Source: Thiomicrorhabdus indica (GTDB lineage Bacteria; Pseudomonadota; Gammaproteobacteria; Thiomicrospirales; Thiomicrospiraceae). From it: DNA of 64,000 bases. Positions 5,588 to 59,314 of the stretch are shown in pieces (the stretch's first letter is position 1; each line of letters starts with the position of its first letter). Under the pieces are notes generated by a model. That model had not been told where the DNA came from, did no database searches, and worked only from the letters and a program-made list of their open reading frames with translations. The DNA is taken from assembly GCF_004293625.1 (NCBI RefSeq), contig NZ_CP033040.1, positions 682,001-746,000 on the forward strand, written 5' to 3'. The translations under genes and the position numbers were made by a program.

Positions 5588-6565
5588 TTAGCGAGGGGCA
5601 AAAAGTTGCTTAATTAAATCAAGTTGTGTTTGTGCTTGATCAAGTTGGTTAAATTGGCGGCGAATTGCTTGATGATTTTCGATACCGGCCGGTGAGTTTT
5701 GCAGATACCAGCCGAAATGTTTTCGTGCAATTCGAGGGCCAAGAATGTCGCCATACAGAGAATGTAGTCCCTGAATATGTTTGAGTAAGGTGCTGAAAAA
5801 TTCTAACTCTGTTGGGCCTGCAAGCATCTCGCCTGTCGTTAGGTAATGATTTGTTTCACGAAACAACCACGGATTGCCTTGGGTTGCTCGTCCAATCATC
5901 AGGCCGTCAGCACCGGTGTATTTTAATACAAATTCTGCTTGCTCGGGGCTGCAAATATCACCATTTGCAATCACAGGAATCGATACGGTTTGTTTTACTT
6001 TTTTTATGGTGTCGTATTCAGCATTTCCTTGAAATTTTTCTGCTCGGGTTCTGCCATGAATTGTGATGGCATCAAGCTCACATGCTTCAGCAATTTGTGC
6101 AATATCAACGGCATTTTTGTGTTCAGAGTCCAAGCCTGTTCGGATTTTGACGGTAACAGGAACATCGACCATGTTTTTAACTTGCGTGAAAATTTCTTGT
6201 ACTTTATCTGGATGACCCATTAAGACTGAACCTGCGGCAACGGAGCAGACCTTTTTGGCCGGACAGCCCATATTGAGATCAATAATTTGCGCACCATTTT
6301 CAACTTGCCAAGCAGCGGCCTCAGCGAGTTCTTCAGGATTTGTCCCTAAAAGTTGAATCGCACGCGGTTCTGGATCATTGAGATTGACATGGCGAGTCGA
6401 GGATTTTTTCGATTCCCAAAGTTCTTTTTTTGACGCAACCATTTCGGCAAGGGTATAAGCTGCGCCATTTTGCCGACAAATTTCTCGAAAAACGGCATCG
6501 GTAATCCCAGCCATTGGCGCGAGTACAAGAGGATTGTCAAATTGATAAGGGCCGATTTTTAGCAT
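5588..6565 (-). CDS. dusB: tRNA-dihydrouridine synthase B
   Basis: FMN-dependent reductase that makes dihydrouridine in the tRNA D-loop. TIM-barrel protein of 325 residues beginning LKIGPYQFDNPLVLAPMAGITD. The active-site segment is DLNMGCPAKKVC (about 95-106, first Cys catalytic), followed by VKIRTGLD (about 139-146), ITIHGRTR (about 167-174) and the phosphate-binding GADGLMIGRA (about 217-226). It is upstream of fis on the same strand, the standard operon. One ACCGGCCGGT palindrome falls in the gene (5684-5693), encoding Pro-Ala-Gly. Confidence 0.97.
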   Translation of the reverse strand: MLKIGPYQFDNPLVLAPMAGITDAVFREICRQNGAAYTLAEMVASKKELWESKKSSTRHVNLNDPEPRAIQLLGTNPEELAEAAAWQVENGAQIIDLNMGCPAKKVCSVAAGSVLMGHPDKVQEIFTQVKNMVDVPVTVKIRTGLDSEHKNAVDIAQIAEACELDAITIHGRTRAEKFQGNAEYDTIKKVKQTVSIPVIANGDICSPEQAEFVLKYTGADGLMIGRATQGNPWLFRETNHYLTTGEMLAGPTELEFFSTLLKHIQGLHSLYGDILGPRIARKHFGWYLQNSPAGIENHQAIRRQFNQLDQAQTQLDLIKQLFAPR

Positions 6566-6724
6566 ATTTACCGATGTTGAATATTAGAAAGTCTTGTAAA
6601 GTTTTCTGGAAAAGGGATGCAGTACAAAGAGAATTTTCCCGCACAGATTCGGGTATAAAAGCGATCTTAGGTGAGCTTGTGATGTCTTTTCCAAAAAACC
6701 TTTCAGGTCTAAACCAAATTAGGG

Positions 6725-7600
6725 TTAAACCTTATGTCCACTTAGTCTAGCCCATTCGTCCGTTGTGGCAAGTTCACTAAGTTCAAAGCCAAATTTTTTA
6801 TAGTGTTCAATCAATTCATCTGCCTGAGTGGTCAATAAGCCTGAAAGCACTAACTCACCACCGGATTTTACTAAGCGTTCAAATTCGCTTGCCAGCTCTT
6901 TTAATGGGCCAGAAAGAATGTTCGCGATGAGTAGATCGACCGGCTCGGAATTAAAATTTTGAACCAATGCAAAATCAATGGAGGCATGGTTTCGTTCAGC
7001 GTTTTGTTCTGACGCTTGAATGGCTTGCGGATCAATATCTGTTCCTGAGACCTTGGTGGCTCCAAGCTTTTGAGCGGCTAATGCTAAAATTCCAGAGCCA
7101 CAACCGTAATCAATCACGGTTTTACCGGCCGGGGGATTTGTGTCTAACCATTCTAAACACATCGCGGTGGTTGGGTGAGTGCCTGTGCCGAACGCCATGC
7201 CGGGATCCAACATGAGGTTAATAGCTTGGGCGTTGGGTGCTTTGTGCCAGCTTGGCACAATCCAGAGATTTTGACCAAATTGCATCGGTTGAAATTGATC
7301 CATCCACTCCCTAACCCAGTCTTTGTCTTCAATTGCTTCAACTTTAAAGTAATGGTCTTTAAGGTCTGGCATATTCGCTTGAATGGTTTCAACAATAAGT
7401 TTGGCATTGGTCTCAGCATCAAACAGTGACATAACTTTTGTGAGTGACCAGATGGGGGTTGTGCCAAGTTCTGGTTCGTAAATCGGTTCGTCTTGTGCAT
7501 CCATAAATGTGACAGATACCGCTCCGATTTCCGTCATCATATCGGATAAAGGTTCTGCAACGGGTTCAGCTACGTCTGTGGTGATTTGAATCCATGCCAT
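6725..7600 (-). CDS. prmA: Ribosomal protein L11 methyltransferase
   Basis: SAM-dependent enzyme that trimethylates lysines and the N-terminus of L11. 291 residues with the PrmA N-terminal substrate-recognition domain (about 1-110), a linker with MLDPGMAFGTGTHPTT (about 131-146) and the class I methyltransferase motif VIDYGCGSGILALAA (about 162-176). NILSGPL (about 221-227) is the family's catalytic NI-type motif. ATG 7600 has a strong GGAGG sequence at the usual distance. It lies between accBC and dusB but is separated from accC by a terminator, so it probably has its own promoter. A near-palindrome (ACCGGCCGGG, 7124-7133) encodes PPAG. Confidence 0.97.
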   Translation of the reverse strand: MAWIQITTDVAEPVAEPLSDMMTEIGAVSVTFMDAQDEPIYEPELGTTPIWSLTKVMSLFDAETNAKLIVETIQANMPDLKDHYFKVEAIEDKDWVREWMDQFQPMQFGQNLWIVPSWHKAPNAQAINLMLDPGMAFGTGTHPTTAMCLEWLDTNPPAGKTVIDYGCGSGILALAAQKLGATKVSGTDIDPQAIQASEQNAERNHASIDFALVQNFNSEPVDLLIANILSGPLKELASEFERLVKSGGELVLSGLLTTQADELIEHYKKFGFELSELATTDEWARLSGHKV

Positions 7601-7629
7601 GATTTTGCCTCCAACAAGGAAATATAGTT

Positions 7630-7639
7630 ACCGGCCGGT
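7630..7639. repeat. ACCGGCCGGT palindrome, intergenic copy
   Basis: Perfect 10-bp palindrome in the prmA leader, about 30 bases upstream of the prmA start, flanked as TTACCGGCCGGTAA (14 bp, also fully palindromic). One of the five copies outside genes. Confidence 0.9.
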
Positions 7640-7686
7640 AATGTTTAAGGTCGTTTTGAATGAATGAGAGATAGAGTGCTTTTAAG

Positions 7687-9124: not shown

Positions 9125-9589
9125 TTATTCAATAACAAACAGCACTTGGCCATATTCAACTGGTTCACCATTGACTCCCAAGATTTGTTTAATGGTTCCA
9201 GCTGTATCTGCTTCAATTGGGTTCATGATTTTCATTGCTTCAAGAATACATAGAGTGTCACCGACAGAAACCGTATCACCTACTTTTACAAATGGGTCGG
9301 AATCTGGAGACGGTGCTTCATAGAAAGTTCCAACCATTGGTGAGGTGATTTTGTGTCCTGATATTTCCGCAGGTGCTGCGTCAGTTGAAGCCGGAGATGC
9401 TGGCGTCGGATCCATTGCCGGTGTTTGTGGCGCAGCGGCTGCCATAGGAGCGGCCATTGGGGCTTGGATGTAGGTTGGTTCTTGAGAGCGTGTAATACGG
9501 ATATTGTGTTCGCCTTCTTTAATTTCGATTTCAGCAATATCTGATTGTTCGACAATTTCAATCAATTTGCGAATAGAGCGAATGTCCAT
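9125..9589 (-). CDS. accB: Biotin carboxyl carrier protein AccB
   Basis: Carries the biotin that shuttles carboxyl groups from AccC to the carboxyltransferase. 154 residues: N-terminal helical [23 protein letters not shown], an Ala/Pro-rich flexible linker (about 38-75), and a biotinyl domain with [14 protein letters not shown] (about 111-124), the lysine of AMKIM being the biotinylation site. ATG 9589 follows AAAGGATA. It lies between aroQ and accC, the common aroQ-accB-accC order. Confidence 0.98.
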
Positions 9590-9626
9590 ATGAGTATCCT
9601 TTCTTGGTTTTGTTATCTGACCGATA

Positions 9627-9636
9627 CCGGCCGGTA
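9627..9636. repeat. ACCGGCCGGT palindrome, intergenic copy
   Basis: Perfect copy flanked T...A in the short aroQ-accB gap, about 40 bases upstream of the accB start. Confidence 0.9.
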
Positions 9637-10387: not shown

Positions 10388-12679
10388 TTACTTTTGGAAT
10401 GCGTTTGTAATGATTTGTGTAAAGTCTTCGGCATTTTTAAAGCCAACAACACGTTGCGCTTTTTGTTCCGAACCATTCTCGAAAAACAGGATGGCTGGAG
10501 GCCCAACGATTCCAAAACGTTTCATCAATTCCTTGTCGATCTCATCATTTGCGGTCACGTCGGCTTTTAGCAAGGTTACGCCTGAAAGTGCAGCTTGAAC
10601 TTGTGCGTCTGAAAAGGTGAATTGTTCCATCTCTTTACAACTGATACACCAATCTGCATAGAAATCGAGCATGATTGGTTGTCCGGTTGCAACGATTTTG
10701 TCTAAATCTTCAGAACTCTTAATTTTTTGGAAAGCGAGTTTTTGCTCAGTCGCAGCAGCGTTTCCACCACCTTGAAGAACTTTTAATGGTTGCAAGGTGT
10801 CTTTAGAACCGGCCAGCATACCAATGAATAATGCTAAACCGTAAATAAACATAACGAGTCCAAAACCTTTGAAGAGTTTGAACCAGCCTGATTTATCAGC
10901 AACTGAGTTGAAGGCTCCGATATAGACAGCAGAGGTAATCAGCAGCAATGCCCAAAGTGTCATGGTAATTTCAGCTGGCATAATGCGGCTTGCCATCCAG
11001 ATGGCGACACCAATTAGCATGACGCCGAATACTGCTTTCACATTGTCCATCCATGCACCGGCTCGTGGGAGAAGTTTGCCGGCCGATGTTCCCAAGAGTA
11101 ATAAAGGAACGCCCATACCAATACTCATTGCAAATAGAGCGGTTCCGCCCAGAAGCGCATCACCGGTTTGCCCTATATAAATCAGTGCACCAGCCAAAGG
11201 AGGCGCGACGCAAGGTCCGACAATTAAGGCAGATAAGAAGCCCATAATAGCAACGCCAGTGAGTTTTCCGCCTTCTTGTTTGTTGGAGATATTGGTTAGT
11301 TTAGATTGAACTGAGCTAGGTAGTTGTAACTCATAGAAACCAAACATGGACAGTGCTAGCAGAACAAAGATCACACTGAATGAGCCAATGATCCAAGGAT
11401 TTTGGAAAGCCGCTTGTAGGTTTTCACCGAATAGACCGGCTAAAACACCGGCAACGGTGTAAGTAATGGACATGGCCAAAACGTAAACCAGTGACATGGT
11501 AAAGGCACGGCGAGTGGTGATTTGGTCACCTTGCCCAGCAATAATGCTCGACAGGATTGGAATCATTGGGAATACGCAAGGCGTCAGTGACAGTAATAAA
11601 CCGAACACAAAGAAGGTCAGGATCACAATCCATACACTGCTGTTTTTGAGTGTGTCGGCAATTTGATCTGTTTCAGAAAGTTCACCGGCCGGTTGCGTTT
11701 GTGCCGTTGCGAGAACCGGTGTTGCAGATGTGTTTTCTGTGATTTGATCTGCACTGACAGTAAATGTTTTTCTCTCGGGTGGATAACAAACCCCTGCGTC
11801 TGCAGAACAACCTTGATATTCAACTTCAACATTCACTGTGCCGGTTAGGCTTGAAAAAGGCAGAGTGGCTTGTAACTGATTATGGAAAACGTTCGTTCTG
11901 CCGAAAACGGGATCATCTATTTCGATCGCTTCTGGAAGCTGTAAGGCACCGAGTTGTGCGTCACCTTCGATAATTTTGGTTTTAATTTTATCTCTGTAAA
12001 GGTGATAGCCTTGTGCAATGTTCCAGCTAAGGACGACTTGGCCGTTTTCGATGGTTTGCAAGAATTGGAAAGCCTTATCGGCCGGTAAAAGTTCGTTCGA
12101 AGCGTTACCACTTTGTAATAGATTGTTTAGTTCACCCAGTGAAGAAAAGCTTGAAGGGTTACCGGCCGGTGATGTTTGTGCAGTTTTTTCGGGTAAATCG
12201 ACAAAGAATTTACGAGTTTGCGGAGGGTAACATACGCCTAATTTATCCGCACAACCTTGGTATTTAATGGTGAGTTCAGTACGTGTTACATCACCGTCAT
12301 AGGCTATTTTGGCAATGGCTTTTTGATTGAATACTTCGGTTTTACCAAAAATTGGATCATCGACGCTTTTAGTTTTTGAAAAACTTGCCGGTTGTAGAGT
12401 GATATTGGTGGCCGTAAAAGACATTTTGTCTTTATAGAGTTTATAGTCATCGGCAATTTTCCATTCAACCTTGATTTTACCGTCTTCAACGGAAGGCTCA
12501 AGCAGTTCAAAAGCTTCATCTACTTGCAGCAAGTCAGCTTGAGATGTGGCCGGTAAAAAAATGATCAGAGCCATCATTAAGCCAGCAAACCACATATTTA
12601 TTGCAGTATATAAGTTAGAACGAACAGCAGAATCTGCCATAGTCGTTTTGTGTTGTAAATAAGAATTTGCTTCAGCCAT
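10388..12679 (-). CDS. dsbD: Thiol:disulfide interchange protein DsbD, two alpha domains
   Basis: Moves electrons from cytoplasmic thioredoxin through the inner membrane to periplasmic DsbC-type partners and cytochrome c maturation. A signal-like hydrophobic stretch is followed by two consecutive DsbD-alpha domains: about 50-162 with YQGCADKLGVCYPP and about 200-310 with YQGCSADAGVCYPP, each with its own cysteine pair. Then come the eight-helix transmembrane domain with SLTPCVFPMIPIL (Cys about 368) and a C-terminal thioredoxin domain with WCISCK (Cys about 678 and 681). Most DsbD proteins have one alpha domain (about 565 residues in E. coli); this one has about 763. The start is uncertain: 12724, 12679 and 12640 are all in frame and none has a strong ribosome-binding site. 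Two palindrome copies (11684, 12161) encode PAG. Confidence 0.95.
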   Translation of the reverse strand: MAEANSYLQHKTTMADSAVRSNLYTAINMWFAGLMMALIIFLPATSQADLLQVDEAFELLEPSVEDGKIKVEWKIADDYKLYKDKMSFTATNITLQPASFSKTKSVDDPIFGKTEVFNQKAIAKIAYDGDVTRTELTIKYQGCADKLGVCYPPQTRKFFVDLPEKTAQTSPAGNPSSFSSLGELNNLLQSGNASNELLPADKAFQFLQTIENGQVVLSWNIAQGYHLYRDKIKTKIIEGDAQLGALQLPEAIEIDDPVFGRTNVFHNQLQATLPFSSLTGTVNVEVEYQGCSADAGVCYPPERKTFTVSADQITENTSATPVLATAQTQPAGELSETDQIADTLKNSSVWIVILTFFVFGLLLSLTPCVFPMIPILSSIIAGQGDQITTRRAFTMSLVYVLAMSITYTVAGVLAGLFGENLQAAFQNPWIIGSFSVIFVLLALSMFGFYELQLPSSVQSKLTNISNKQEGGKLTGVAIMGFLSALIVGPCVAPPLAGALIYIGQTGDALLGGTALFAMSIGMGVPLLLLGTSAGKLLPRAGAWMDNVKAVFGVMLIGVAIWMASRIMPAEITMTLWALLLITSAVYIGAFNSVADKSGWFKLFKGFGLVMFIYGLALFIGMLAGSKDTLQPLKVLQGGGNAAATEQKLAFQKIKSSEDLDKIVATGQPIMLDFYADWCISCKEMEQFTFSDAQVQAALSGVTLLKADVTANDEIDKELMKRFGIVGPPAILFFENGSEQKAQRVVGFKNAEDFTQIITNAFQK

Positions 12680-18736: not shown

Positions 18737-19687
18737 ATGCAAAAAATCTTTATTTCTGTTGCTTCATTTGTGGATCCTTATTTGCCGTTTACGGTTCAAA
18801 ATGCGTGTGAGTCGGCAAAGCATCCTGAAAACTTGGTGTTTGGAGTGGTAGATCAAGCGCCAGATAATCGTAGAAAAACATTGCAAGCATTGGAGTTGTC
18901 AGCTGAGATTCGATATATCCATATTGATCCGGTGGAAAGTCGCGGAGTTTGTTGGGCTCGTTCATTGGTCCAGTCGCTTTATCAGAATGAAGCCTATTAT
19001 CTGCAAATCGATTCTCATACCTATTTCGAAAAAGATTGGGACATTCGGCTGATTGAGCAATTGAACTCATTAAATGATATGCACGCAAAGCCGATTTTGT
19101 CGATCTATCCATATGGATTTGAGTTTGAAGAAGACCGGCCGGTGGTAAAGGTTCGAGTAGGTGGCCTGACAACTTTGGTGTTAAGAGTGAAGCCTAATGA
19201 AGCTCTTGAGGAAAAAAATCCTGTTTTGCATTTTAGGGCTGAACATCAGAAAATCAGGGAACCTGTGTTGGGATTCCATTTAGCTGGCGGGTTTATTTTT
19301 ACCTTTGGTCAGTTTGTTAATGAGGTGCCTTATGATCCAAGGCTGTATTTTCATGGTGAAGAACAGAGTTTGGCCGTTAGAGCTTATACACACGGTTGGG
19401 ATATTTTTCATCCGCCAGAAATTCCGCTTTATCATCTTTATAAGCAACCTGAAAACGCTTACATAACGCATCATTGGCATAAGGATTGGGATCAACAACG
19501 GGATTATGCTTGGCATGAATTGCGTGCCAGCGCAGTGGAGCGTTTAATTAAATTACTCTATCAGCAGCAAGATCTTGGCGCGTATGGGGTCGGCTCTGAG
19601 CGAACTTTGCAACAGTTTGCTGAATTTTCAGGCATTGATTATTTACGGCAAACGATGAATTTTGAGCATTTACCGAAAACTTTATAA
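18737..19687 (+). CDS. GlcNAc-transferase family glycosyltransferase
   Basis: 316-residue protein resembling the glycosyltransferase (GlcNAc) family PF11397, related to Skp1 GlcNAc-transferases. It opens KIFISVASFVDPYLPFTVQNA, then YYLQIDSHTYFEKDWD (about 86-101, with a D-x-H/D metal-type motif) and AGGFIFTFGQFVNEVPYDPRLYFHGEEQSLAVRAYTHGWD (about 179-218), where FxGEE is typical of the family. YHLY and HHWHKDWDQ follow. No membrane segment; probably cytoplasmic. Acceptor unknown. It starts 2 bases after the DJ-1 gene. A palindrome copy (19134) encodes RPV. Confidence 0.85.
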   Translation: MQKIFISVASFVDPYLPFTVQNACESAKHPENLVFGVVDQAPDNRRKTLQALELSAEIRYIHIDPVESRGVCWARSLVQSLYQNEAYYLQIDSHTYFEKDWDIRLIEQLNSLNDMHAKPILSIYPYGFEFEEDRPVVKVRVGGLTTLVLRVKPNEALEEKNPVLHFRAEHQKIREPVLGFHLAGGFIFTFGQFVNEVPYDPRLYFHGEEQSLAVRAYTHGWDIFHPPEIPLYHLYKQPENAYITHHWHKDWDQQRDYAWHELRASAVERLIKLLYQQQDLGAYGVGSERTLQQFAEFSGIDYLRQTMNFEHLPKTL

Positions 19688-19780: not shown

Positions 19781-22700
19781 TTATTCTGTGTCAGCGCTGC
19801 CAAATCCACCACCACCGGGTGTTTGCATAATTAAAGTGTCGCCAGCTTCAAAGCTTTCGCTGAATGTGCTTGGCAGCCATTTGATTGAAGTCTTACCGGC
19901 CGGTAGCTTTCCATGTTTGCTGGTTTTACCAGATTCTCCCCCTTGCATTCCATAGGGAGGAATTTGCCGGTGATTACTCAATACGGATACCATCATGGGT
20001 TGTAAAAATTCGATATGACGTTCGCAGCCGTTTCCACCTGAGTATTTTCCTTTTCCGCCACTATTTTTACGAATCGCAAATTTTTTTAAACGAACTGGGT
20101 AGCGTTGTTCAAATATTTCTGGGTCGGTAAGTCGAGAATTGGTCATGTGGCTATGCACTGCATCTTCCCCCTTGTAATTTTTTCCAGCGCCTGTGCCTCC
20201 GCACAATGTTTCATAGTATTGCCAAGTCTTATCACCAAAGGTGAGATTGTTCATGGTGCCTTGTGAGGCCGCCTGAATTTGCAAGGCACCATAAAGGGCA
20301 TCAGTGACCACTTGTGATGTTTCAACGTTTCCAGCCACGACAGCGGCAGGATAGTTAGGATGTAAAATGCTTCCGGTCGGTACAATTAATTCGATAGGAC
20401 GTAAGAAACCATCATTGAGTGAAATATCCTGATTGATTAATGTTCGCAAGACATACAGTGTCGCTGCGCGAGTGATGGCAAAAGGGGCGTTGAAGTTGTT
20501 ATTTTGCTGTTCACTGCTGCCAGAGAAATCAATGGTGGCGGTCTGAGAGGTTTGATTTATTCTGACCTCGACACATACTTGTGAACCTTGATCTGTCTGA
20601 TAACAAAATTCACCTGATGAGAGTTGTGGCAAGAGTGCTTTGACCTGTGCTTCAGAGTGTTCTAAAACAAAGTTCATGTAGGCTTTTACTTCTTGCAGAC
20701 TGGTTTGGCGACAAAGTTGTTGGAGTCCATTGATCCCTGCTTGATTTGCGGCAATTTGAGCCTGTAAATCATTCCAATTTTGTTGCCAGTTTCTGGCTGG
20801 GTATTGGGCTTGTAAAAATCTGGTTTTCAGAGTGCTAGATTGTTCTTTTCCAGCCAATAGGACAGGAACGCAATCCAGTAATACTCCTTCGTGTTCAATA
20901 TGTGTGCTGTCAGCTGGCATGGAGCCAGGTGTGAGCCCTCCTACATCCGCATGATGCCCGCGTGAGGCGACATAAAACGCGCACTTGTCATCAATAAAAA
21001 CGGGTGAAATCACCGTAATATCTGGCAGATGCGTTCCTCCGGCGTAAGGATTGTTGAGCGCGTAGGCATCACCGGATTGTAATTGATTGCCATGTCGCTG
21101 AATCAGTGTTTTGACGGATTCGCCCATTGAGCCAAGGTGCACGGGAACGTGTGGGGCATTGGCAATTAATTGACCTGACTGATCGAAGAGTGCACAACTA
21201 AAATCGAGGCGTTCTTTGATATTTACCGAATGCGCGGTTTTAGCGAGAATTGCACCCATTTGCTCGGCAATTGACATAAAACGATGATTATAAAGTCCAA
21301 GTTTAATCGGATCAGGTTTAAATATTTTTTTGTTATTTTGCGAAATTTGAGCACTTTTTGTAGAATTTAACTCTGGTTTTACAGCATTTTGTGTCAGCTG
21401 TAGTTGTCCGTCAGCAAGCAGTTTTGTATTCCAACCGGCCGGTAAATAAATGGTTCCTGTCGTTTCTAGGATTAATGCGGGACCTCTAAGCGTTTGTGAC
21501 TGTGTGATTGCGTTGCGTTGATACACAAGAGTGTCCTGCCAAGCACCGTTCGCATAAGTTTGAACAGTTTCAATTGGCTTGGCGCTGTGGGGGCTAGTGT
21601 TTGGCAAACTGTCGGCTTGGTGCGCTTGATTAAGTACTTCAATAGTAATGCTGTGAACCACAATATCTGCATCGAGTTGAAAGCCAAAGCGTTGCTGGTG
21701 TTGTTCTGAAAACAACATGGCGTAGTCCGTTTGCCAGTCAATAAATTGGATGTCCAGACTGGTATCGTTGCCTTGATAGTGCAGATGCAAAGTCATTTTT
21801 TCTTCAGCGACTTCTGAGTTTTGCGCTTGCAGTTCTTTGATAGCCGTTTGGCGTTGTGTTTGGATCAGTGGTTTAAGTTGAGGTAGTTCGGTGATATGAA
21901 TCGAATAGGATTGAGTATTCATAACCGAGTTTTGTGCCAACCCCATACCATAGGCTGAAAGTACGCCTGAGTAGGGGTGCAATAACACGGATTGAATTCC
22001 CAGTTTTTCTGCGACTAAGCAGGCATGTTGACCGCCAGCACCGCCAAAACTTACAAGTGTGTAGTCGTGCAAATCATAACCACGTTGTGTGGAAATTGTT
22101 TTGACCGCATTGGCCATATTTTCAATCGCAATATCCAGTGCGCCTTGCGCCAAATTTTCAGGTTCCATTGATAAGGCGTTGGCCATTTCCGCAAACTTGT
22201 TACGCACAGCAATCATATCCAGTGCTTGATCGGCGTTTTCACCGAATACACTAGGAAAGTGACTTGGTTGAATTCTGCCGAGCAAGACATTGGCATCGGT
22301 GACCGTTAAAGGGCCACCTCGACGATAGGCTGTTGGGCCGGGATTCGCTCCGGCGGATTCTGGTCCAACTCGCACTTCACCTTGTTGTAAAGTGATAATG
22401 GATCCGCCACCAGCGGCAACAGTGTGAATGTCCAGCATTGGCACGCGCATTTGTACACCTGCGACTTCGTTGTCAAAGTTGCGTTGCAATTGACCGGCAT
22501 AATGAGAGACATCGGTTGATGTTCCACCCATATCAAATCCGATGATTTTGTCGATTCCTGCATGTTGTGAGGTTTTGACTGCGCCGATAATGCCACCGGC
22601 TGGTCCTGAAAGAATGGCATCTTTTCCTTGAAAAGTCTTGGCTTGACATAAGCCACCGTGTGATTGCATAAATTGCAAATCAACATTTGGGAGTTGTTTG

Positions 22701-32558: not shown

Positions 32559-32568
32559 ACCGGCCGGT
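32559..32568. repeat. ACCGGCCGGT palindrome, intergenic copy
   Basis: Perfect copy flanked CTACCGGCCGGTAG (14-bp palindrome), about 20 bases upstream of the histidine phosphatase start, in the probable promoter region of the GAK-like cluster. Confidence 0.9.
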
Positions 32569-36518: not shown

Positions 36519-36537
36519 TGTCATGCTCCAAAAGAAG

Positions 36538-40362: not shown

Positions 40363-40926
40363 TTAAGTCATAAGTTTGTCGTGTAAAAAGTCGTTTAAAG
40401 TTTCACCGGCCGGTGCAAAAAGCTTGTATTCATCTTCCGCTTCGTGGTCGCTGCCAACAAAGTGTTCTTCGGTCAGGAATTTTGAGACTTCAAGCTGTAA
40501 ACCAAAATATTTGCCCAAACTTTTAAAGACGCCTTGAGATGCAAGGTTGCTTGGACTAATGGTGCAACTTATGGTTAATAGCTTTGACTGACGTTGCCTT
40601 TGTAGCTCTATTGCTTGTGTAATCTGTTGGCGAACCAGTGCCTTAGCAACGCCTTGCCCACGACCGTTTTCGCCGACCACTAGCTGCCAAACAAACAGTT
40701 CGGTTGGTGCGTCGGGGCGCATGTACCCTGAGACAAAGCCTAGAATTTCTCCATCTCTTTCTGCGACTACACACGTGTCTGCAAAGTGTGAGCTTTGCAA
40801 GAAATAGAGGTAGCTGGAATTCAAATCCAGTGGAGGAGAATTCTTGATCAATTGGTGAATGTGAATGCCATCTGCAAGTGTGGGACGGCGATAAATAATC
40901 GTTAAGTTATCGGTATCAGACTCCAT
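40363..40926 (-). CDS. ectA: Diaminobutyrate acetyltransferase
   Basis: GNAT acetyltransferase making N-gamma-acetyl-diaminobutyrate. IIYRRPTLADGIHIHQLIKNSPPLDLNSSYLYFLQSSHF (about 9-47) is the EctA opening, and FVWQLVVGENGRGQGVAKALV (about 77-97) contains the acetyl-CoA Q/RxxGxA loop. The frame opens at a GTG at 40935; ATG 40926 (MESDTDNL) is preferred, giving 187 residues, though neither has a strong ribosome-binding site. First gene of ectABC-ask. Palindrome copy at 40405 encodes PAG. Confidence 0.95.
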   Translation of the reverse strand: MESDTDNLTIIYRRPTLADGIHIHQLIKNSPPLDLNSSYLYFLQSSHFADTCVVAERDGEILGFVSGYMRPDAPTELFVWQLVVGENGRGQGVAKALVRQQITQAIELQRQRQSKLLTISCTISPSNLASQGVFKSLGKYFGLQLEVSKFLTEEHFVGSDHEAEDEYKLFAPAGETLNDFLHDKLMT

Positions 40927-46890: not shown

Positions 46891-46900
46891 ACCGGCCGGT
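46891..46900. repeat. ACCGGCCGGT palindrome, intergenic copy
   Basis: Perfect copy flanked TATACCGGCCGGTAAA, 35 bases upstream of the uup start in the uup / sensor-kinase divergent region. A second copy is 123 bases away at 47014. Confidence 0.9.
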
Positions 46901-47013: not shown

Positions 47014-47023
47014 ACCGGCCGGT
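47014..47023. repeat. ACCGGCCGGT palindrome, intergenic copy
   Basis: Perfect copy, flanked TTTACCGGCCGGTAAT, about 55 bases upstream of the sensor kinase start and 4 bases after the putative operator, so it lies in or next to the promoter. Confidence 0.9.
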
Positions 47024-47077: not shown

Positions 47078-48502
47078 ATGGGTATTCGAACAAAAGTTAT
47101 TCTGTTTTTATTGGGGTTTGGATTTGTCATTTTGGCAACATTGCTCTGGAGTAATCAATTTGTTTTGCACAAAACCATGTTGCACTATGTTGATCAGAGG
47201 GACCAGCAACGTTTAGAACGTTTGCAAACTAACTTCCAGATTTTTCTTCAATATGAACCTTTCAGTAAAGCCATTGAGGTACCAGAGCCGCAGTGGCGAA
47301 AAATCCTACATCTTTCGCACCGTATTGATTTAAAGCAGATGCCGAGCATGATTCCTTTAGTGCTTCGTGAACCCCGTAGACGTTCGCCGCCTCCGGACGA
47401 GTTTGAGCGTCGAGTGAGCTTGTTGACGCCAGAGGGGCAAGTTGTTTATGGGCCACAAATCGATAAAGCTTGTCATAAGTTACCGGTCTATCTCGGCGAT
47501 CAACCGATTGCTTTGATTGCTTATGCTCCATTACAAGAACTTATTCAGCAGGCAGACATTGAATATGCTCAATCACAATTGCGAGTTTTGACGATTGGTG
47601 CGATTTTGATTACTGGGTTGGCATTGATTTTACTGTGGCCTTTAGCCAACCACTTTTTAACGCCAATCCGCCAATTGAATAAAGCCATGCATCGCTTAGC
47701 CAGTGGAGATTTGACCGGCCGGTTAAATGTTCAGCGTAAAGATGAGTTTGGAACTTTGCAAAGGGATTTCAATTACTTAGCTAAAACGTTGGAAGCTGCA
47801 CAACAGAGTCGAAACCAATGGGTGGCAGATATTTCGCATGAATTGCGTACGCCTTTAACCGTTTTAAATGGCTCGATTGAAGCTATGAGTGATGGTATCC
47901 GGCCAATGAATGCCGAAAATCTCCAAAAATTGAAGCAAGAAGTTTCGGTGTTGCAACGACTTATTGAGGATCTTTATCACTTAAGCTTAAGTGATGTTGG
48001 TGCTTTGCAGTATTCTATGGAGAAGCTCGACTGGAATGGTTTGATTGCTCAAGTTGTGACCTCTATGCAAGATAAAGCGCGGCATAAAGGTTTGAAAATT
48101 CAAACGAATATAGCATCGAATGCGTGGGTCTTTGGTGACCGCAATCGTTTAAATCAGATGCTAAGTAATCTTCTGAAAAACTCTATGGATTACACAGACT
48201 CCTTGCAGCAAAACGGGAAGCCAGGTGTCATTGAAGTGAAGCTTATGGAAAACCCTGAGGAATCGGAATGGATTTTAGAAATTAACGATAGTGCTCCAAG
48301 CGTCGATGAGGCAGAATTAAAGAATTTAACACAGCGGTTTTATCGCACAGAGCCTTCTCGAAATCGTCGCACAGGTGGCGCGGGGCTTGGCTTGGCGATG
48401 GTGAGCCAAATTGTCCAAGCACATTCAGGAAGCATGCATTTAAGTCAATCAAAATTGGGTGGCTTAAGTGTGAAAATTCAATTTCCAAATTTAATTGATT
48501 AG
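47078..48502 (+). CDS. Sensor histidine kinase, BaeS/CpxA-like
   Basis: 474 residues: helix 1 (about 8-28), a periplasmic domain (about 29-168, rich in Arg and Pro around 98-112), helix 2 (about 170-190), HAMP (about 190-240), HisKA with VADISHELRTPLTVL (phospho-acceptor His254) and HATPase (DRNRLNQMLSNLLKNSMDYTDS, ..GGAGLGLAMV). The HisKA block and the following SIEAMSDGIRP closely resemble BaeS. It lies 14 bases before its response regulator and upstream of a Spy-like gene, the Bae/Cpx target, so envelope or metal stress sensing is likely. Palindrome copy at 47714 encodes TGR in the HAMP domain. Confidence 0.93.
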   Translation: MGIRTKVILFLLGFGFVILATLLWSNQFVLHKTMLHYVDQRDQQRLERLQTNFQIFLQYEPFSKAIEVPEPQWRKILHLSHRIDLKQMPSMIPLVLREPRRRSPPPDEFERRVSLLTPEGQVVYGPQIDKACHKLPVYLGDQPIALIAYAPLQELIQQADIEYAQSQLRVLTIGAILITGLALILLWPLANHFLTPIRQLNKAMHRLASGDLTGRLNVQRKDEFGTLQRDFNYLAKTLEAAQQSRNQWVADISHELRTPLTVLNGSIEAMSDGIRPMNAENLQKLKQEVSVLQRLIEDLYHLSLSDVGALQYSMEKLDWNGLIAQVVTSMQDKARHKGLKIQTNIASNAWVFGDRNRLNQMLSNLLKNSMDYTDSLQQNGKPGVIEVKLMENPEESEWILEINDSAPSVDEAELKNLTQRFYRTEPSRNRRTGGAGLGLAMVSQIVQAHSGSMHLSQSKLGGLSVKIQFPNLID

Positions 48503-50223: not shown

Positions 50224-50772
50224 ATGGATACACCAACAGCATTGAGCAAACAAACTATTGTTTTGCACTGGATTGTCGCGATAGGGATGATTGTTATGTT
50301 AGCGGTCGGAGTTTACATGGAAGAAAATAAAGCGTATGAGCTTTATCCATTGCATAAATCGTTTGGCGTGTTAATTGTGGTGTTTGTTTTATGGCGAATC
50401 TATTGGCGTGCCAAAAATGGTTGGCCTACGCCTGTTCGTCAATACCGGCCGGTAGAAATTAAACTCTCCAAAATCGTTCATTGGTTATTGATTATCGGAA
50501 CGATTCTAATGCCAATTTCGGGCATGATGATGTCTGGTTTAGGTGGGCATGGGATTCCGTTATTTGGGTTGGAATTGGTAGCAAGAAATCCTGATCCAGC
50601 TGATCCATCAAAAGTTATTGCATTGAATGAGACGCTGGCTCAAGCAGGTAAAGCGATGCATGGTTTAGGTGGCAATGTTTTGATTGCCGCAGTGCTGTTG
50701 CATATTGCTGGCGCGCTTAAACATCACATGATTGATAAAGATAATACGCTTAAGCGAATGATTGGGAAATAG
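50224..50772 (+). CDS. Cytochrome b561 family protein
   Basis: 182 residues, four transmembrane helices, di-heme cytochrome b561/CybB type. Histidines in LSKQTIVLHWIVAIGMIV (helix 1), LYPLHKSFGVLIVVFVLWRIYWR (helix 2) and the last helices (KIVHWLLIIGTILMPISG; HGLGGNVLIAAVLLHIAGALKHH) are the expected heme ligands. Accepts or passes electrons in the inner membrane; the E. coli homologue uses quinol and superoxide. The frame opens at 50209 but ATG 50224 has GGAGGAGAG at the right distance. Palindrome copy at 50444 encodes RPV. Confidence 0.92.
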   Translation: MDTPTALSKQTIVLHWIVAIGMIVMLAVGVYMEENKAYELYPLHKSFGVLIVVFVLWRIYWRAKNGWPTPVRQYRPVEIKLSKIVHWLLIIGTILMPISGMMMSGLGGHGIPLFGLELVARNPDPADPSKVIALNETLAQAGKAMHGLGGNVLIAAVLLHIAGALKHHMIDKDNTLKRMIGK

Positions 50773-51469: not shown

Positions 51470-52198
51470 TTATTTCTGTCTGCGATCTAGACAATAAATC
51501 AAATTGGCCGTTGAGCGCATGAGATAGGCGTTTTGTTTTTTAGCAAAACGTTTTTGGTTTTCCCAGTAATTTCGAATTTGTGCGGTTTCTTCGGTGGGCT
51601 CCATTATTCGATTTTGATCAAACCGATTCCACAAGTTAAAAATCAACCGGCCGGTAGGTTTTAAACACGGTTGTAGGTTTTGATGGAAATCAACATTGCA
51701 TAGCTCAGAAGGAATCCCTTGGCTATCAAATAGGTCAACCATAATACAATCATAGGCAAACTCTACATTGTCTTCACATTGCTGAGCCAGTTCATCGATA
51801 AAAGCTATGGCATCGGCTTGAACGGATTCGATTTCTGGTACATCTGGAAGTTGAAAATATTTGTAAGCCGCATCAATCACAATCTGGCGAAGTTCAACAA
51901 TGGTCATCTGTAAATTTGGCAAACTGTGATAAAGATGATGTGCCATTGTGCCGCCGCCCATGCCAAGCATTAATACTCGATAGTTTTTGGGATGTTTTAA
52001 ATCAAGATAGTGGTCATTGACAAGCGCCACCATTTTTTGCTGATATTCAAAGTTTAGCGTCATTGGCGCGTTGCGATAGATGCAGCTTTGCTCAACAGGG
52101 GAGTCGAAATGCATCTTTCGAACTGTGCGAGTCTCAATCACACTGAGCTCTCCAAATTCATCACGTGCTTTATGAATGACTGTTCCACCATATTTCAC
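51470..52198 (-). CDS. Spermidine-synthase-like methyltransferase-fold protein
   Basis: 242 residues of the spermine/spermidine synthase superfamily. FGELSVIETRTVRKMHFDSPVEQSCIYRNAP at the N-terminus replaces the usual substrate loop. VLMLGMGGGTMAHHLYHSLPNLQMTIVELRQIVIDAAYKYFQLP (about 74-117) is the nucleotide-binding GxGxG and acidic strand end, and DCIMVDLFDSQGIPSEL (about 148-164) the motif near the active site. True aminopropyltransferase residues (GGGDGG..E) are only partly kept, so polyamine synthesis is doubtful. Overlaps the thioredoxin-like gene upstream by 4 bases. Palindrome at 51646 encodes TGR. Confidence 0.85.
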   Translation of the reverse strand: MKYGGTVIHKARDEFGELSVIETRTVRKMHFDSPVEQSCIYRNAPMTLNFEYQQKMVALVNDHYLDLKHPKNYRVLMLGMGGGTMAHHLYHSLPNLQMTIVELRQIVIDAAYKYFQLPDVPEIESVQADAIAFIDELAQQCEDNVEFAYDCIMVDLFDSQGIPSELCNVDFHQNLQPCLKPTGRLIFNLWNRFDQNRIMEPTEETAQIRNYWENQKRFAKKQNAYLMRSTANLIYCLDRRQK

Positions 52199-52857: not shown

Positions 52858-53490
52858 ATGCAAGCAGATTTTTGGCATGAGATGTGGGAAAGCGGCGTGG
52901 TCGGTTTTCATCAGAAAGAGATTAATCAGTTTCTTCAAGATTTTTGGCCAAAGCTTGAATTGCAAGGCAACGAAGAAATTTTAGTTCCTCTTTGCGGTAA
53001 GTCGTTAGATATGCTTTGGCTTAAACAACAAGGGCATAAAGTACTCGGTGTGGAGTTGTCGCAAAAGGCTTTGGATGAATTTTTAGAAGAAAATAATTTG
53101 CCAGAACAGCCAACCAATCATCCGGCATTTTGTGGGTATGAGTTGCCGGAAATGCGTTTATTGTGTGGAGACTTTTTCCATTTGTCGGCTGAAGATTGTC
53201 AAGATGTGAAAGCAATCTATGACCGAGCTGCGATTGTGGCTTTGCCACCTAAAATGCGCAAGGATTATGCAGCGCACCTTCAAGAAATCCTACCGGCCGG
53301 TACAAAAATTTTAATGGTGATTATGGAGTATGATCAAAGCCAAATGGCTGGCCCGCCGTTTTCAGTCAAAGAGACTGAGATTGCAGCCTTATTTGCGGAT
53401 TATCAAATTGAGCATTTGACAGAAATTGAGTTCCAGCGCAAAGGATGTCCGGTGAATGAAAAAGTGTTGCTTTTATCGCCCAAAATTTAA
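52858..53490 (+). CDS. tpm: Thiopurine S-methyltransferase family protein
   Basis: 210-residue SAM-dependent methyltransferase of the bacterial TPMT type. FWHEMWESGVVGFHQKEINQFLQDFWP at the N-terminus is characteristic, then ILVPLCGKSLDMLWLKQQGHKVLGVELSQKALDEF (about 41-75, SAM motif I) and AIYDRAAIVALPPKMRKDYAAHL (about 121-143). In bacteria the family is associated with selenium and tellurium methylation; the native substrate is unknown. ATG 52858 follows TAGGAG. Palindrome copy at 53292 encodes PAG. Confidence 0.94.
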   Translation: MQADFWHEMWESGVVGFHQKEINQFLQDFWPKLELQGNEEILVPLCGKSLDMLWLKQQGHKVLGVELSQKALDEFLEENNLPEQPTNHPAFCGYELPEMRLLCGDFFHLSAEDCQDVKAIYDRAAIVALPPKMRKDYAAHLQEILPAGTKILMVIMEYDQSQMAGPPFSVKETEIAALFADYQIEHLTEIEFQRKGCPVNEKVLLLSPKI

Positions 53491-53502: not shown

Positions 53503-56500
53503 TTAATTGCTGACGGTTTGGTTTCGGCCGCCTTGTTTGGCTTTGTAAAGACGCTCATCTACACGTTTGTAAAGCGATTCTTCGGTATCTCCAGATCGAG
53601 CCATACCGACACCGAGGCTGATTGTGAGTGACTGTTGGTTTTCGATTTTAATGTTGTCTTCCACATAGATGCGTATTTTCTCGGCAAAATGAATAGCAGA
53701 TTCTAGGTTGGTGTTACAGAGTAAAATAGCGAATTCTTCTCCCCCCATCCGGTAACAAAGATCGGTTTGGCGCATCATTTTTTGCAGAGAACTGCCCAGC
53801 TTAATTAAAACCTGATCACCGGCATAGTGACCAAATTGGTCATTAATAGATTTGAAACGGTCGATATCGAACATAACTAAGGCAAATGGTGTGTCATAAC
53901 GATTAAAGAGTGCGAACAGTTCTTGAACTTTCTCATAATACGCTTTTCGATTCTGTAACTGCGTTAATGGGTCGGTGATACTTTGATGATTGAGTTTCTG
54001 TATCAACTCATAGTACTCGCTGACATCTTGTGAAGTTAATAGCAGTTGTTTTCCATTCGGCATCAGTGAAATTGACGAGCGAACTCTGACCCAGTGACCA
54101 TCTTTATGGTGACAGAAGCGTTCAAAGTTTTCATAGTGACCGGTTTCTTTTACTTGTTTCTTTACCTCTAATAAGGTCTGATGAGCATCTTCTCTGGTCA
54201 AATCTGAGCAGCTAAGCGTTTTAAACTCCTCTTCAGTGTAACCAAGCATGCGCGAATATTGGGGGTTGGTGTAGGTAAATTTGGTGTCTAAATCCGTTAG
54301 AGCAATGCTTTCTAATGAGTTTTGCAGAATAGCTTCTAGCTCTTGTTTCTGTTCGGTAATTAAACGTTGGATGTGTTTTTGTTCACTGATGTCGCGTTGC
54401 GAGGCAAATAAGTAGGCTTTACCATCCATTTCAATTCGACTAGTCGAAAGTTGTACATCGATAATTTCGCCGTTTTTGCGTGTATGTTGCGTTTCAAAAA
54501 CACCAGGGTTACGAATGAAATTAGCAATGACTTCGGGTATTTTTGAGTTGGGCAAGAATTTATCCCAAAGAGAAATGTGTTGGTGTGCCAATTCTTTTTT
54601 GGTGTAGCCTAAATTTTCGGCAAAGGATTGATTAAATAAAACTAAATTGCCGTTTGCATCGACCAAGTGAATTCCATCAGAAATATTTTCTAAAAGGTAT
54701 TCAAACTTTTGACGTTCAGCTTTCAGGCTATTTTCATGGGCTTTTTGTTCTGATAAATCACGAGCTGAAGCATAGAAAAACGTTTGATTATCAATTTCAA
54801 TTGTTTTGACACTGACATGAACAGGAAAGGTCGAACCATCTTTACGCTTGAATTTGCTTTCAAATTGGTAGGTTTGATCTTTGGATGTGATTAATTTATC
54901 CATGCGAGGCTGGGTGGGTTGCAAATCCCAATCGCTAATTGTTAATTTCTCTAGTTCTTCTCTTGAATAACCAATCATCTTCACAAAAGCATCGCTGACA
55001 TTAACGATTTTGCCTTGATCGTCGACAACATGAAGTCCATCAGTCGCCGAATTAAGTAAAAGTTCATAGTGGTTTTTTTGACCGCGTAATTTAGTCGTCA
55101 AGGATTCTAGGCTTTGGTTTTGAGCAAGCAGTTTTTTGTGGATTTTATTGAGTTTCAAGTTTTGCAGCCATGCGATAAGGATAACTAAACTAAGCGGGAT
55201 AAAAATGCTTAGAAAGCCTTTCCAATCTAGCTGAGTAGAGTAGTCGACCTGAAAATGTTTGCGTTGCATAGTTTGCAGGGTTGCATTTGGAATGGTTTCA
55301 ATGGTCTTTTTTAGAATACTTTGTAGGATTGGCAAATCAGGGTGAACCGCCATGGCAATATTTTGTGTATAAGGAAGTTTCGCGCCAATGACAAGATTGA
55401 CATAACCTTGTTCTCGAATGGTGTGACCAATGACGGCTAAGTTATCGATATAGCCATCGGCTTGCCCTTCGGCAACTAATTTCAGTCCTTCAACAGGTGT
55501 GTTGACGAAAAACAATTCTGAGTCTGGATAGGCATTCGAAATATAATCGTGTGATGCGTAGGATTTAACGACAGCAATGCGTTTGTGGTTTAACTGATCT
55601 AGTCTTCGAATTTCATGACCTTTGCGAGTCGCTACTACGCCTGGAAGCGTTAAGTAACCATCCGTAAACAGAAACTTTTTTTCACGTTCGGTCGTAATAG
55701 TCATTGCTGAAAGCACATCGATTTTTCCGGCTGAAAATTCTTCGAGTGTTTCTGCCCAACTTTTTTCAGGGTCATACAAAAATTTTACGCCTAGGCGTTT
55801 TTCCAAATAGTGAATGAGTTCTCCCGAAACACCATCTAGTTTAGATTGCGAATTGACGAATTCAACAGGAAGCCAGTATGGGTCAATTCCTAGCTTGAGA
55901 ACTGGGTTGGCATCCAACCAACGCCTTTCTTGTAGGCTTAAATGCAAATCATGGCGATCATAGTTATAAAGCGCGTGTTCAATATTTGGGGTTTTTTCAA
56001 GAAGTCCTTGGTTGGCAAGAAGTTTTTGAATGTATTCAAATCGTCCAGCATCTAAGGTACCAATAGGCGTTTGCTCTGGGTCAATCATCTTTTCGATGGT
56101 ATGAGCTTCAAGTAACAGCTGGTTTAAAGTTTTACCGGCCGGTTGATAAGTGTCTAGAATCCATTGTGCAACTTCTTCTTTATGGTTTAAGGCATATTCC
56201 CAACCTTTAAGGACTGCTGTGCGCATCGCCTGAAGCCGTTTGGGATGGTTTTGTTTTTCGGAGAGCGTTGTAAATAACATGTCACCGTAAAGGTCTATGC
56301 CATACTGAGCGGGGTTAATAACGTGTGTCTCGATACTTTTAGACTGGTAGTAATAACCTTCATTGGTCAGGTAGCCTGCATAGGCATCGATATCGTCTCT
56401 TAGAATCAAATTGGGATTGTTTTTGGGTTTGATACGAACTAGTTCTGCTTGAATATTAAAATGATTAAGCAATGCTAGGATGGATATCCCATCGGTATCT

Positions 56501-57812: not shown

Positions 57813-57881
57813 TGGCAAGCCTTAATCCTTCGCGTATGATATTTTTTCAAAAGTGTGCTGAGTGTATCGAATTGAGGGGAT

Positions 57882-58430
57882 ATGAGTCAAAAATTACCGA
57901 GTATTTTGGCGGAAAAAATCGCGGCAAAGTCGAAAGTTTTTACCGTACAGGCGCAACACATTGAGTTTTCAAACGGAACATCAGTGCATTATGAGCGCTT
58001 ATTGGGTTCGGCGAATGGTGCGGTTTTGATTGTCCCCATCACAGAAAATGATGAATTTATGCTTATCCGTGAATACGGTGCAGGTGTTGGACGCTATGAG
58101 TTAGGGTTTCCAAAAGGCAAGATAGATCCTGGCGAAACTTGGAAAGAGGCAACGATTCGTGAAAGCCAAGAAGAAATTGGTTACCGGCCGGTAAACATTG
58201 AACTGTTAGAAAGTGTGAGTTTAGCCTCTGGGTACATGACTCACTTTACACATATTGTTTTGGCTAAAGGGTTAAGTCCTGCTTTCGCAGAAGGTGACGA
58301 ACCAGAGCCGCTGGAAGTGCTTACGTGGCCAATAGATGACTGGCAAAATCTGATTGTCGAACCGGAGTTTTCAGAAGGGCGAGCCTATGCCGCGATTTTA
58401 TTAGTTCTTAAACGTTTAGGAAAAATTTAA
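57882..58430 (+). CDS. nudE: ADP-sugar/dinucleotide Nudix hydrolase NudE
   Basis: 182 residues. The Nudix box GFPKGKIDPGETWKEATIRESQEEIGY (about 76-102) fits Gx5Ex7REUxEExGU with ..RESQEEIG. NudE of E. coli cleaves ADP-ribose, NADH and Ap3A. The gene overlaps cysQ by one base (stop/start shared), as in other Gammaproteobacteria (nudE-cysQ). GAGGGG upstream of ATG 57882. Palindrome copy at 58183 encodes RPV within the C-terminal side of the Nudix box. Confidence 0.95.
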   Translation: MSQKLPSILAEKIAAKSKVFTVQAQHIEFSNGTSVHYERLLGSANGAVLIVPITENDEFMLIREYGAGVGRYELGFPKGKIDPGETWKEATIRESQEEIGYRPVNIELLESVSLASGYMTHFTHIVLAKGLSPAFAEGDEPEPLEVLTWPIDDWQNLIVEPEFSEGRAYAAILLVLKRLGKI

Positions 58431-59314
58431 TGCAAGAATCTATTCCTCATTCTCAATTACAGCTTTGGCTACCACAGGTTGCCCAGATTGCTTTACAGGC
58501 CGGTCGTTTGATTTCGCAAATGTATCGAGAGAATCAGCAGCAAGCATTTCTAGATGTTGAAAAGAAAAAAGACGGCACACCTGTGACCGAGGCCGACCTG
58601 CAGGCTGACCGGTTAATTTCTCAGGCACTTAAGGTTTTGACGCCAAACATCCCTTTGGTGACCGAAGAAAGTGTCGCTAAGGTGCCTTATGAACAACGCC
58701 AAAACTGGTCAACGTTTTGGTTGGTTGATCCTATGGATGGCACCAAAGAGTTTATTGAAGGCACTGGTGAGTTCAGTGTGAATATTGCACTTGTGGTTAA
58801 TCACCGGCCGGTATTAGGCGTGGTGTATGGTCCAGAAGTGGGGCGCTTGTACTGTGCGATTGAAGGTGCGCAGTCCATTGCCACTGATGCCGATGTGTAT
58901 CAATTGGATATAGACAATTTGGATATGTTGCGGTTTTTGCAGGCAGCTGAAATGATTCAAACAGCACCACTGAACCCCAAACACCCAACTAAAGTGGCCG
59001 TTAGTCGCCGACACGGCGGGCGAACGGAATTGTTTATGTCGGAGTTAAATAAACCACAAACGGTCAAGATGGGGTCGGCTTTAAAGAGTTGTTTGGTAGC
59101 GGAGGGAAAAGCGCATGTGTATCCTCGTTTCGGTCCAACCTCTCTTTGGGATACCGCTGCGTCGCAAGTGATTGTACAGCAAGCAGGAGGCGCAATTATT
59201 AACGCCGCAGGACACGCTTTGGAATATGTGCAAACACCAAACCTACTCAACCCGTTCTTTCTGGTTATTTGCGACCCTCAAGCGCAATGGCCGAAAATCC
59301 CGGAAATTATGTAA
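58430..59314 (+). CDS. cysQ: 3'(2'),5'-bisphosphate nucleotidase CysQ
   Basis: Removes the 3'-phosphate of PAP, a by-product of sulfate assimilation. 294 residues of the inositol-monophosphatase family: DGTPVTEADLQADRLI (about 47-62), PLVTEES (about 77-83), FWLVDPMDGTKEFIEGTGEFSVNIALV (about 98-124; Mg-binding WxVDPxDGT) and the C-terminal SLWDTAASQVIVQQAGG (about 239-255). Translationally coupled with nudE. Palindrome copy at 58803 encodes RPV. Confidence 0.95.
   Translation: MQESIPHSQLQLWLPQVAQIALQAGRLISQMYRENQQQAFLDVEKKKDGTPVTEADLQADRLISQALKVLTPNIPLVTEESVAKVPYEQRQNWSTFWLVDPMDGTKEFIEGTGEFSVNIALVVNHRPVLGVVYGPEVGRLYCAIEGAQSIATDADVYQLDIDNLDMLRFLQAAEMIQTAPLNPKHPTKVAVSRRHGGRTELFMSELNKPQTVKMGSALKSCLVAEGKAHVYPRFGPTSLWDTAASQVIVQQAGGAIINAAGHALEYVQTPNLLNPFFLVICDPQAQWPKIPEIM

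Follow-up and report, generated by a model that had tools for sequence, protein, structure and literature searches.

What writes one and the same palindrome into a bacterial chromosome about a thousand times, across genes and gaps alike? The question is raised by a 64-kb stretch of the Thiomicrorhabdus indica genome (one contig of 2,829,883 bp, called G000 in comparisons; the stretch, positions 682001-746000, is hereafter the window), in which 26 exact copies of the 10-mer ACCGGCCGGT are found between positions 5684 and 58812. An earlier note on this DNA had put 26 copies in 53 kb against about 0.02 expected in 64 kb; the claim holds and was even understated, as 100 dinucleotide shuffles of the window (G+C 41.6%) give an expectation of 0.02 and none of the 100 reaches 26. 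ACCGGCCGGT is self-complementary, so that every copy reads on both strands. The account which we rate slightly above an even chance, by analogy with known systems, is that ACCGGCCGGT may be a palindromic DNA-uptake (self-recognition) sequence with dialects, built by biased uptake and recombination.

The excess is a property of the whole genome, in which ACCGGCCGGT has 1025 copies (362 per Mb) and its reversed control pattern only 1. Comparison with a Markov model, a check suggested by the earlier note, was made on the window plus 60 evenly spaced 20-kb stretches (1.264 Mb, 45% of the genome; hereafter the sample): 477 copies are found and 0.7 are expected from a second-order model. Copies with one mismatch are also in excess (137 vs 19.7 expected), 84 of them deviating at the two end positions, and copies with two mismatches are close to expectation (282 vs 266.5). 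The extension TACCGGCCGGTA is seen in 11 of the 26 window copies; it is found only 372 times genome-wide (reversed control, 0) against 1025 for ACCGGCCGGT, and thus the invariant unit is ACCGGCCGGT, not the 12-mer. Among 61 other genomes of the same family, ACCGGCCGGT occurs 0-15 times each, with a mild excess in the sister species G013 and G024 (15 copies vs 3 and 2 reversed controls). Similarly, the 12-mer ACCGGCCGGTAA has 757 matches in G000 and at most 6 in any other of 369 genomes of the class (G000 included). An extended form of the motif was met in 11 stretches of a genome-contig collection from which the own genome is possibly excluded, with a single site each, and in none of the viral contigs searched; a paired form with one fixed spacing matched one viral contig, of 67% G+C. 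Publications containing the 10-mer have titles and abstract openings unrelated to such a motif, no relevant title is among the matches listed for CCAGGCCTGG, and none of the titles shown on related topics describes the ACCGGCCGGT motif. As for overall composition, G000 has a G+C content of 41.6%, lower than the 45-50% of its seven closest sampled relatives, despite the accumulation of a GC-rich motif.

Could base composition or codon use produce such numbers? Our own gene caller, applied to the sample, gave 993 genes and 81% coding sequence; 267 of the 477 copies are coding, 204 intergenic and 6 on edges. The coding copies fall in the three reading frames that the earlier note had listed, xPAG (184), xRPV (45) and TGR (38). 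Since 204 copies are intergenic, codon use of these tripeptides cannot explain the abundance, and the poor conservation of the residues in orthologues (see below) also led us to discard it. Taken together with the 477 copies against 0.7 expected, the single reversed control genome-wide and the 43% of copies that are intergenic, the account by chance, composition or codon use is refuted, its probability being practically nil.

The site is larger than the 10-mer. In the 477 copies both flanks are alike: outward from the core, A, A and A have frequencies of 0.59, 0.59 and 0.54, followed by a mixed position; positions +5 to +7 are rich in T (0.45, 0.57, 0.58), G is scarce at +5 and +6 (0.06), and beyond them the composition is near background. 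The left and right flanks are independent of each other (r = 0.025). From these equal and independent patterns it follows that the unit is a symmetric palindromic site of about 24 bp, the core plus AAAnTTT on each side, and the absence of orientation claimed earlier thus extends to the flanks. The pattern is also present, somewhat weaker, in coding copies. An asymmetric core with a one-sided tract was rejected, the log-likelihood gain of a two-orientation mixture being 92.3 against 73-93 in 10 pairing-broken controls. A polar sequence of the Chi or KOPS (FtsK-orienting polar sequence) type was rejected too, because a self-complementary core with equal flanks can have no orientation.

Copies are unevenly shared among genomic compartments. 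Their density per kb is 0.26 in coding sequence, 0.76 in divergent gaps, 1.04 in tandem gaps and 2.16 in convergent gaps, with a peak of 3.3 at 20-40 bp past stop codons and 0.5-0.7 beyond 100 bp. In comparison with 500 simulations that preserve coding and intergenic motif rates, adjacent copies 16-29 bp apart are enriched (19 vs 3.4, standard deviation 1.9), all 19 being intergenic, and none are less than 16 bp apart (3.6 expected). All 22 pairs within 40 bp face the 3' end of a gene, 21 of them within 62 bp. Tandem and convergent gaps, which face a 3' end, make up about 76% of intergenic bases; 22 of 22 is therefore a modest excess, and the closeness to stop codons is the stronger sign. Predicted stems of the 22 pairs have energies of -18.7 to -25.0 kcal/mol, and the T-tails that follow have between 1 and 7 T in 8 positions; three of the pairs (two in stretch L019, one in L024) have near-identical surroundings and are not independent. 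We infer from the modelled stems that close pairs behind genes probably act as terminator hairpins. On the larger scale the copies are spread over-evenly: the variance/mean ratio of counts per 20 kb is 0.72 (1.15 simulated; 0.4% of the 500 runs as low), and the coefficient of variation of the gaps is 0.91 (1.01 simulated; 1%). The three pairs with shared surroundings lie behind very large genes with near-identical 3' ends (L019:1217-7729, L019:9222-16517 and L024:5610-10277), a paralogous family in which the same motif-pair hairpin stands 22 bp past the stop codon.

How did the copies come into genes? The earlier note had held that the force acts on DNA rather than on protein and had pointed to orthologous sites as a test; the comparison agrees, in that orthologues in relatives often lack the motif residues. 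In 900 kb of the relative G020, 57 of the 267 coding copies have an orthologue, taken as an alignment that covers half or more of the query with 50% identity or more. The motif residues are 50.4% identical to G020, as against 72.7% (standard deviation 3.6%) for random windows of the same genes (200 draws), and over 99 pairs across seven relatives the values are 50.3% and 69.4%. For example, within neighbourhoods of 88% identity, PPAG is found in place of PQEG and SPAG in place of NSEG. The relative's sequence has about 5 of the 10 motif bases at orthologous sites, and 46 of the 57 G020 alignments are gap-free within 3 residues of the motif. The gap-free alignments together with the low residue identity show that the motif was written mainly by in-place substitution and overrides protein sequence, at a cost to it. 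A small mobile palindromic element resembling repetitive extragenic palindromes (REP) or miniature inverted-repeat transposable elements (MITE), which would insert ready-made copies, might instead account for the high copy number, the intergenic enrichment and the 11 of 57 sites that adjoin an indel. Its insertion is hard to reconcile with the 46 gap-free sites and with flanks that are graded preferences, not a fixed repeat; on these alignments the account appears largely refuted, and we regard it as very improbable. In the G020 stretches L125-L129 and L158-L197 the non-palindromic 10-mers GTAATGGTAC (29 vs 0.9 expected) and AATGGTACCG (31 vs 2.5 expected) are frequent, perhaps as a dispersed repeat.

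Furthermore, a related palindrome, CAGGCCTG, is iterated elsewhere in the genus. Among 24 genus members outside the G000 sub-clade, 167 kb contain 54 copies of it (2.9 expected), 15 members having at least one and 13 at least two. In 46 kb of the seven other members of the sub-clade there are 2 copies (0.7 expected), at the same place in G020 and G026, and over 0.96 Mb and 1.26 Mb, respectively, G020 and G000 have 8 copies each. ACCAGGCCTGGT is the form taken by many CAGGCCTG copies and differs from ACCGGCCGGT in having an extra A and T next to the central GGCC; further copies have the form ACAGGCCTGT or GCAGGCCTGC. Both palindromes share, besides the GGCC centre, an A at dyad+8 (0.54 for ACCGGCCGGT, 0.65 for CAGGCCTG), T at dyad+10, +11 and +12 (0.45/0.57/0.58 and 0.58/0.70/0.56) and a scarcity of G at dyad+10 (0.06 and 0.02). 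On a tree of the ABC-F protein with 27 rows, the dialect labels need 8 changes against 13.2 when shuffled (0 of 200 shuffles as low); samples are about 2.5-18 kb per genome, and the labels of 15 genomes, resting on 1-8 copies each, are tentative. G000 falls in a clade with 100/100 support, the seven other members of which show no dialect. In 7 of the 27 genomes the ABC-F stop codon is followed by a copy at a distance of 20-66 bp, and in G008 by two, spaced 24 bp; such copies may be shared by descent. On these tentative labels the dialects cluster by phylogeny. No palindrome iterated to a similar degree was found in G024 (100 kb), G031 (80 kb), G026 (60 kb), G014, G013 and G011 (20 kb each) or G020 (0.9 Mb); the closest approach was four copies each of ACAACGTTGT in G024 and of GAGCGCTC in the 20 kb of G014 (stretch L142). 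In G021, GGCGCGCC occurs three times in 4.9 kb (locus L113); G021 and G014 both lack the CAGGCCTG dialect, and their repeated palindromes are possibly other dialects, local repeats or an effect of composition.

Some DNA of foreign appearance is poor in the motif. L047 (G000 1833001-1853000), which like L063 was picked for its low motif count, has 2 copies in 20 kb and encodes TraG, TraC and TraD-type conjugation proteins, with a TrbI match below cut-off. L236 (1857001-1877000), which begins 4 kb beyond L047 and was fetched for another reason, has 1 copy; it encodes a PilL2 protein of the PFGI-1 class (over cut-off) and, by matches below the cut-offs, pilus-type ATPases and a type IVB-like secretin. 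The two together hold 3 copies per 40 kb, where about 14.5 would be found at the genome mean, and on gene content they are best read as an integrated conjugative element that is nearly motif-free. A reverse transcriptase-like protein of this element has its best match, below cut-off, to the group II intron type. The first 10.6 kb of L048, the stretch after, are motif-free, and so is a 12.4-kb part of L056 that bears a pilin cluster. L063:1-16274, likewise motif-free, encodes a TonB receptor, two ABC transporters and a major facilitator superfamily gene, with a HmuY-like protein nearby, and looks like an acquired iron-uptake island.

Among the options listed in the earlier note, a DNA-uptake or recombination mark fits these results best. 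A surface DNA receptor, probably symmetric or dimeric and part of a type IV pilus-like machine, would prefer DNA in which GGCC is flanked by ACC/GGT arms and, roughly a helical turn away, by A/T tracts. Kin DNA bearing the site would be taken up and recombined more often, and as a consequence mutations that create or repair a site would be copied back preferentially (molecular drive). Copies would then accumulate evenly on the resident chromosome, for the most part at places that do least harm to proteins and promoters, and those close to each other would be reused as terminator hairpins. We infer the receptor, the biased uptake, the competence and recombination as the driving force from analogy with known systems. 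The uptake signal sequence (USS) of Pasteurellaceae is directional, with one-sided A/T tracts. The core of ACCGGCCGGT is unrelated to that of USS. In Campylobacter, uptake is tied to a palindromic mark, RAATTY, a short and very common site on whose adenine methylation it relies; no iterated long palindrome is known in that system.

Two bacterial families are described as taking up DNA with a strong preference for sequence (PMC7811141), and the likeness to the uptake sequences of both is considerable. As with the DNA uptake sequence (DUS) of Neisseriaceae, there are about a thousand or more strict copies, and dialects that appear to follow phylogeny vary around a constant centre; wadDUS, for example, differs by a single inserted T (PMC3630211). 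Inverted pairs of both DUS and USS are described as terminators, with hairpins at gene ends (PMC1852404), and an atypical distribution of DUS marks conjugative elements (PMC7371117). Permissive sites of the core genome are described as having the most DUS, and genes acquired recently as having none (PMC2397512). With USS, the palindrome shares a short strict core, A/T tracts and, as described there, evolution by point mutation (PMC7811141), whereas many recent DUS reportedly arise by recombination rather than point mutation (PMC2397512). DUS are directional and 10-12 nt long, unlike the perfect palindrome with symmetric flanks seen here, for which the nearest precedent is Simonsiella muelleri, with 1294 DUS as overlapping pairs with dyad symmetry (PMC3630211). 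By this comparison, symmetry is the departure from DUS and USS and the other traits tested are mostly shared; in setting the motif apart from the uptake sequences of Neisseria and Haemophilus, the earlier note was right about the lack of orientation and less so about the rest. A wider claim, for which we would put the chances as even, is that this is a third uptake-sequence family beyond those of Pasteurellaceae and Neisseriaceae, made up of palindromes that a symmetric receptor reads, with genus-wide dialects that keep the central GGCC and the TTT at dyad+10-12 while the intervening letters change, ACCGGCCGGT having newly arisen in a sub-clade otherwise without the probably ancestral CAGGCCTG.

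Several observations weigh against uptake as the source of the palindrome. ComEC is present in G000 and in 36 of 40 genomes, and G000 has two tandem PilT-family genes, with at least one over cut-off in all 8 clade genomes; their presence in G000 speaks for uptake, yet both are equally present in sister species without a known dialect, so the machinery does not track the motif. PilQ exceeds the family cut-off in none of the 8 clade genomes, G000 included. The MSHA-type (mannose-sensitive haemagglutinin) pilus locus of G000 encodes an ATPase with an MshE domain, a T2SSF protein, a TPR protein and a secretin, the last of which (L054:15158-16947) is split across two reading frames. Motif density shows no steady trend over quintiles of codon typicality (0.31, 0.26, 0.20, 0.23 and 0.35 per kb). 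The ratio of one-mismatch to exact copies, 137 to 477, is steeper than the counts for DUS and USS (438 to 947, PMC1939737; 1 to 1.15-1.45, PMC3630211), kingDUS being similarly steep with 21% extra at one mismatch (PMC3630211). DUS and USS are both said to lack palindromic symmetry (PMC1939737), and the spacing of USS is disputed, being even in one account (PMC1939737) and uneven in another (PMC7811141). Finally, the 11 of 57 sites with an adjoining indel compare with 3% in controls, so some copies possibly did not arise by substitution, or sites favour or arise at indel-prone places. As to the secretin, its G020 counterpart (L238) is one open frame of about 570 aa, and the split in G000 is either a sequencing error or a real break. 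By analogy, the receptor would be a sequence-specific pilin such as ComP or the predicted ComN. N-methyl pilins are listed in G000, none of them linked to the motif; minor pilins of the type IV pilus were set aside as receptor, the first cluster examined consisting of what we term type II secretion-like pseudopilins.

Alternatively, DNA modification or repair might create or maintain the sites, without any part in uptake, as in an element of the type of HIP1 (highly iterated palindrome 1), which itself remains unexplained. In form the resemblance is close: HIP1 and the alternate HIPs are GC-rich palindromes with hundreds of copies per Mb and a steep mismatch profile with deviations at end positions (PMC4390886; PMC1939737, Table 6), and alternate HIPs replace HIP1 in single genomes, one of them built on rCCGGy (Elhai, PMC4390886). 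HIP is tied there to cognate methyltransferases (PMC4390886), and the methyl-directed mismatch repair model of Elhai needs such an enzyme. PF00145, found in 20 of the 58 genomes searched, has no match in the one-contig G000, nor has PF01555, while adenine families such as PF02384 were not searched; a 5-methylcytosine or N4-methylcytosine methyltransferase was rejected as the cause on this ground, and the methylation account is weakened. A PF00145 match is present in 8 of the 15 CAGGCCTG bearers (in G016, below cut-off), as this account would have it, and absent from the other seven (G005, G010, G015, G018, G022, G025 and G027). TTT tracts at dyad+10-12 would also go beyond the needs of a short methyltransferase site, and pairing as terminators and sparsity in conjugative elements are not among the HIP1 features described in the source (PMC4390886). 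A HIP1-like origin thus seems unlikely. The earlier suggestion that the motif is a methyltransferase target was not borne out by these family searches, and HIP1 as closest analogue is fair in form, with its cognate enzyme not found in PF00145 or PF01555.

Another possibility is that an abundant protein dimer with a chromosome-organising or regulatory role binds the palindrome, which would be selected in cis at about one site per 2.8 kb. A twofold symmetric 24-bp site with contacts about a helical turn apart would suit such a dimer, as would the even spacing and the fact that divergent gaps have the lowest intergenic density. About a thousand sites would have to be under selection strong enough to override protein sequence, yet seven close relatives live without the motif, and it is sparse in the conjugative element. 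Moreover, pairs 18-30 bp apart show no clear helical phasing by eye and lie behind genes, and so suit hairpins better than protein cooperation. We hold a dimer site to be distinctly unlikely.

If the palindrome is indeed an uptake sequence, it would offer an independent case for how such tags arise, for drive against selection and for what receptor reads them, and from the dialects one could predict between which species DNA can be exchanged. Even if it is not, the force that writes a thousand costly copies, and a different palindrome in cousins, needs explaining.

Table 1. Copies of ACCGGCCGGT in the window, with the genes in or between which they lie (window coordinates).
Copy	Placement	Gene (strand)	Residues or remark
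5684..5693	coding	5588-6565 (-)	SPAG frame
7630..7639	intergenic		
9626..9635	intergenic	9125-9589 (-) and 9668-10105 (-)	genes on either side
11684..11693	within gene	10388-12724 (-)	DsbD
12161..12170	within gene	10388-12724 (-)	DsbD
19134..19143	coding	18737-19687 (+)	DRPV; TQPV in G020 orthologue
19895..19904	within gene	19781-23383 (-)	hydantoinase/oxoprolinase
21434..21443	within gene	19781-23383 (-)	hydantoinase/oxoprolinase
22990..22999	within gene	19781-23383 (-)	hydantoinase/oxoprolinase
25955..25964	coding	25603-26439 (+)	HRPV
26933..26942	coding	26448-27599 (-)	TGRL
31043..31052	coding	30533-31774 (-)	EPAG; metallophosphoesterase
32559..32568	intergenic		
33950..33959	extreme 3' end of gene	33948-35699 (-)	SulP permease
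35823..35832	within gene	35799-36524 (-)	pseudouridine synthase
36441..36450	within gene	35799-36524 (-)	pseudouridine synthase
40405..40414	coding	40363-40926 (-)	APAG
46891..46900	divergent gap	44916-46856 (-) and 47078-48502 (+)	ABC-F gene / histidine kinase gene
47014..47023	divergent gap	44916-46856 (-) and 47078-48502 (+)	second copy in this gap
47714..47723	within gene	47078-48502 (+)	histidine kinase; TGRL, QKRT in G020
50444..50453	coding	50224-50772 (+)	YRPV
51646..51655	coding	51470-52198 (-)	TGRL
53292..53301	coding	52858-53490 (+)	LPAG
56134..56143	within gene	53503-56964 (-)	PAS-GGDEF sensor
58183..58192	coding	57882-58430 (+)	YRPV; HLPK in G020, 80%-identical neighbourhood
58803..58812	within gene	58430-59314 (+)	inositol monophosphatase family

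Two minor observations may be added. The product of the PAS-GGDEF sensor gene in Table 1 has 1153 aa, with NMT1 and SBP_bac_3 ligand domains, three PAS stretches and GGDEF, and resembles a double-sensor diguanylate cyclase. In the sample, GATC is scarce (0.60 of the Markov expectation; near normal, 0.92, in G020) and AGATCT is found 110 times where 310 are expected, the scarcity of GATC in G000 possibly reflecting avoidance of a restriction enzyme.

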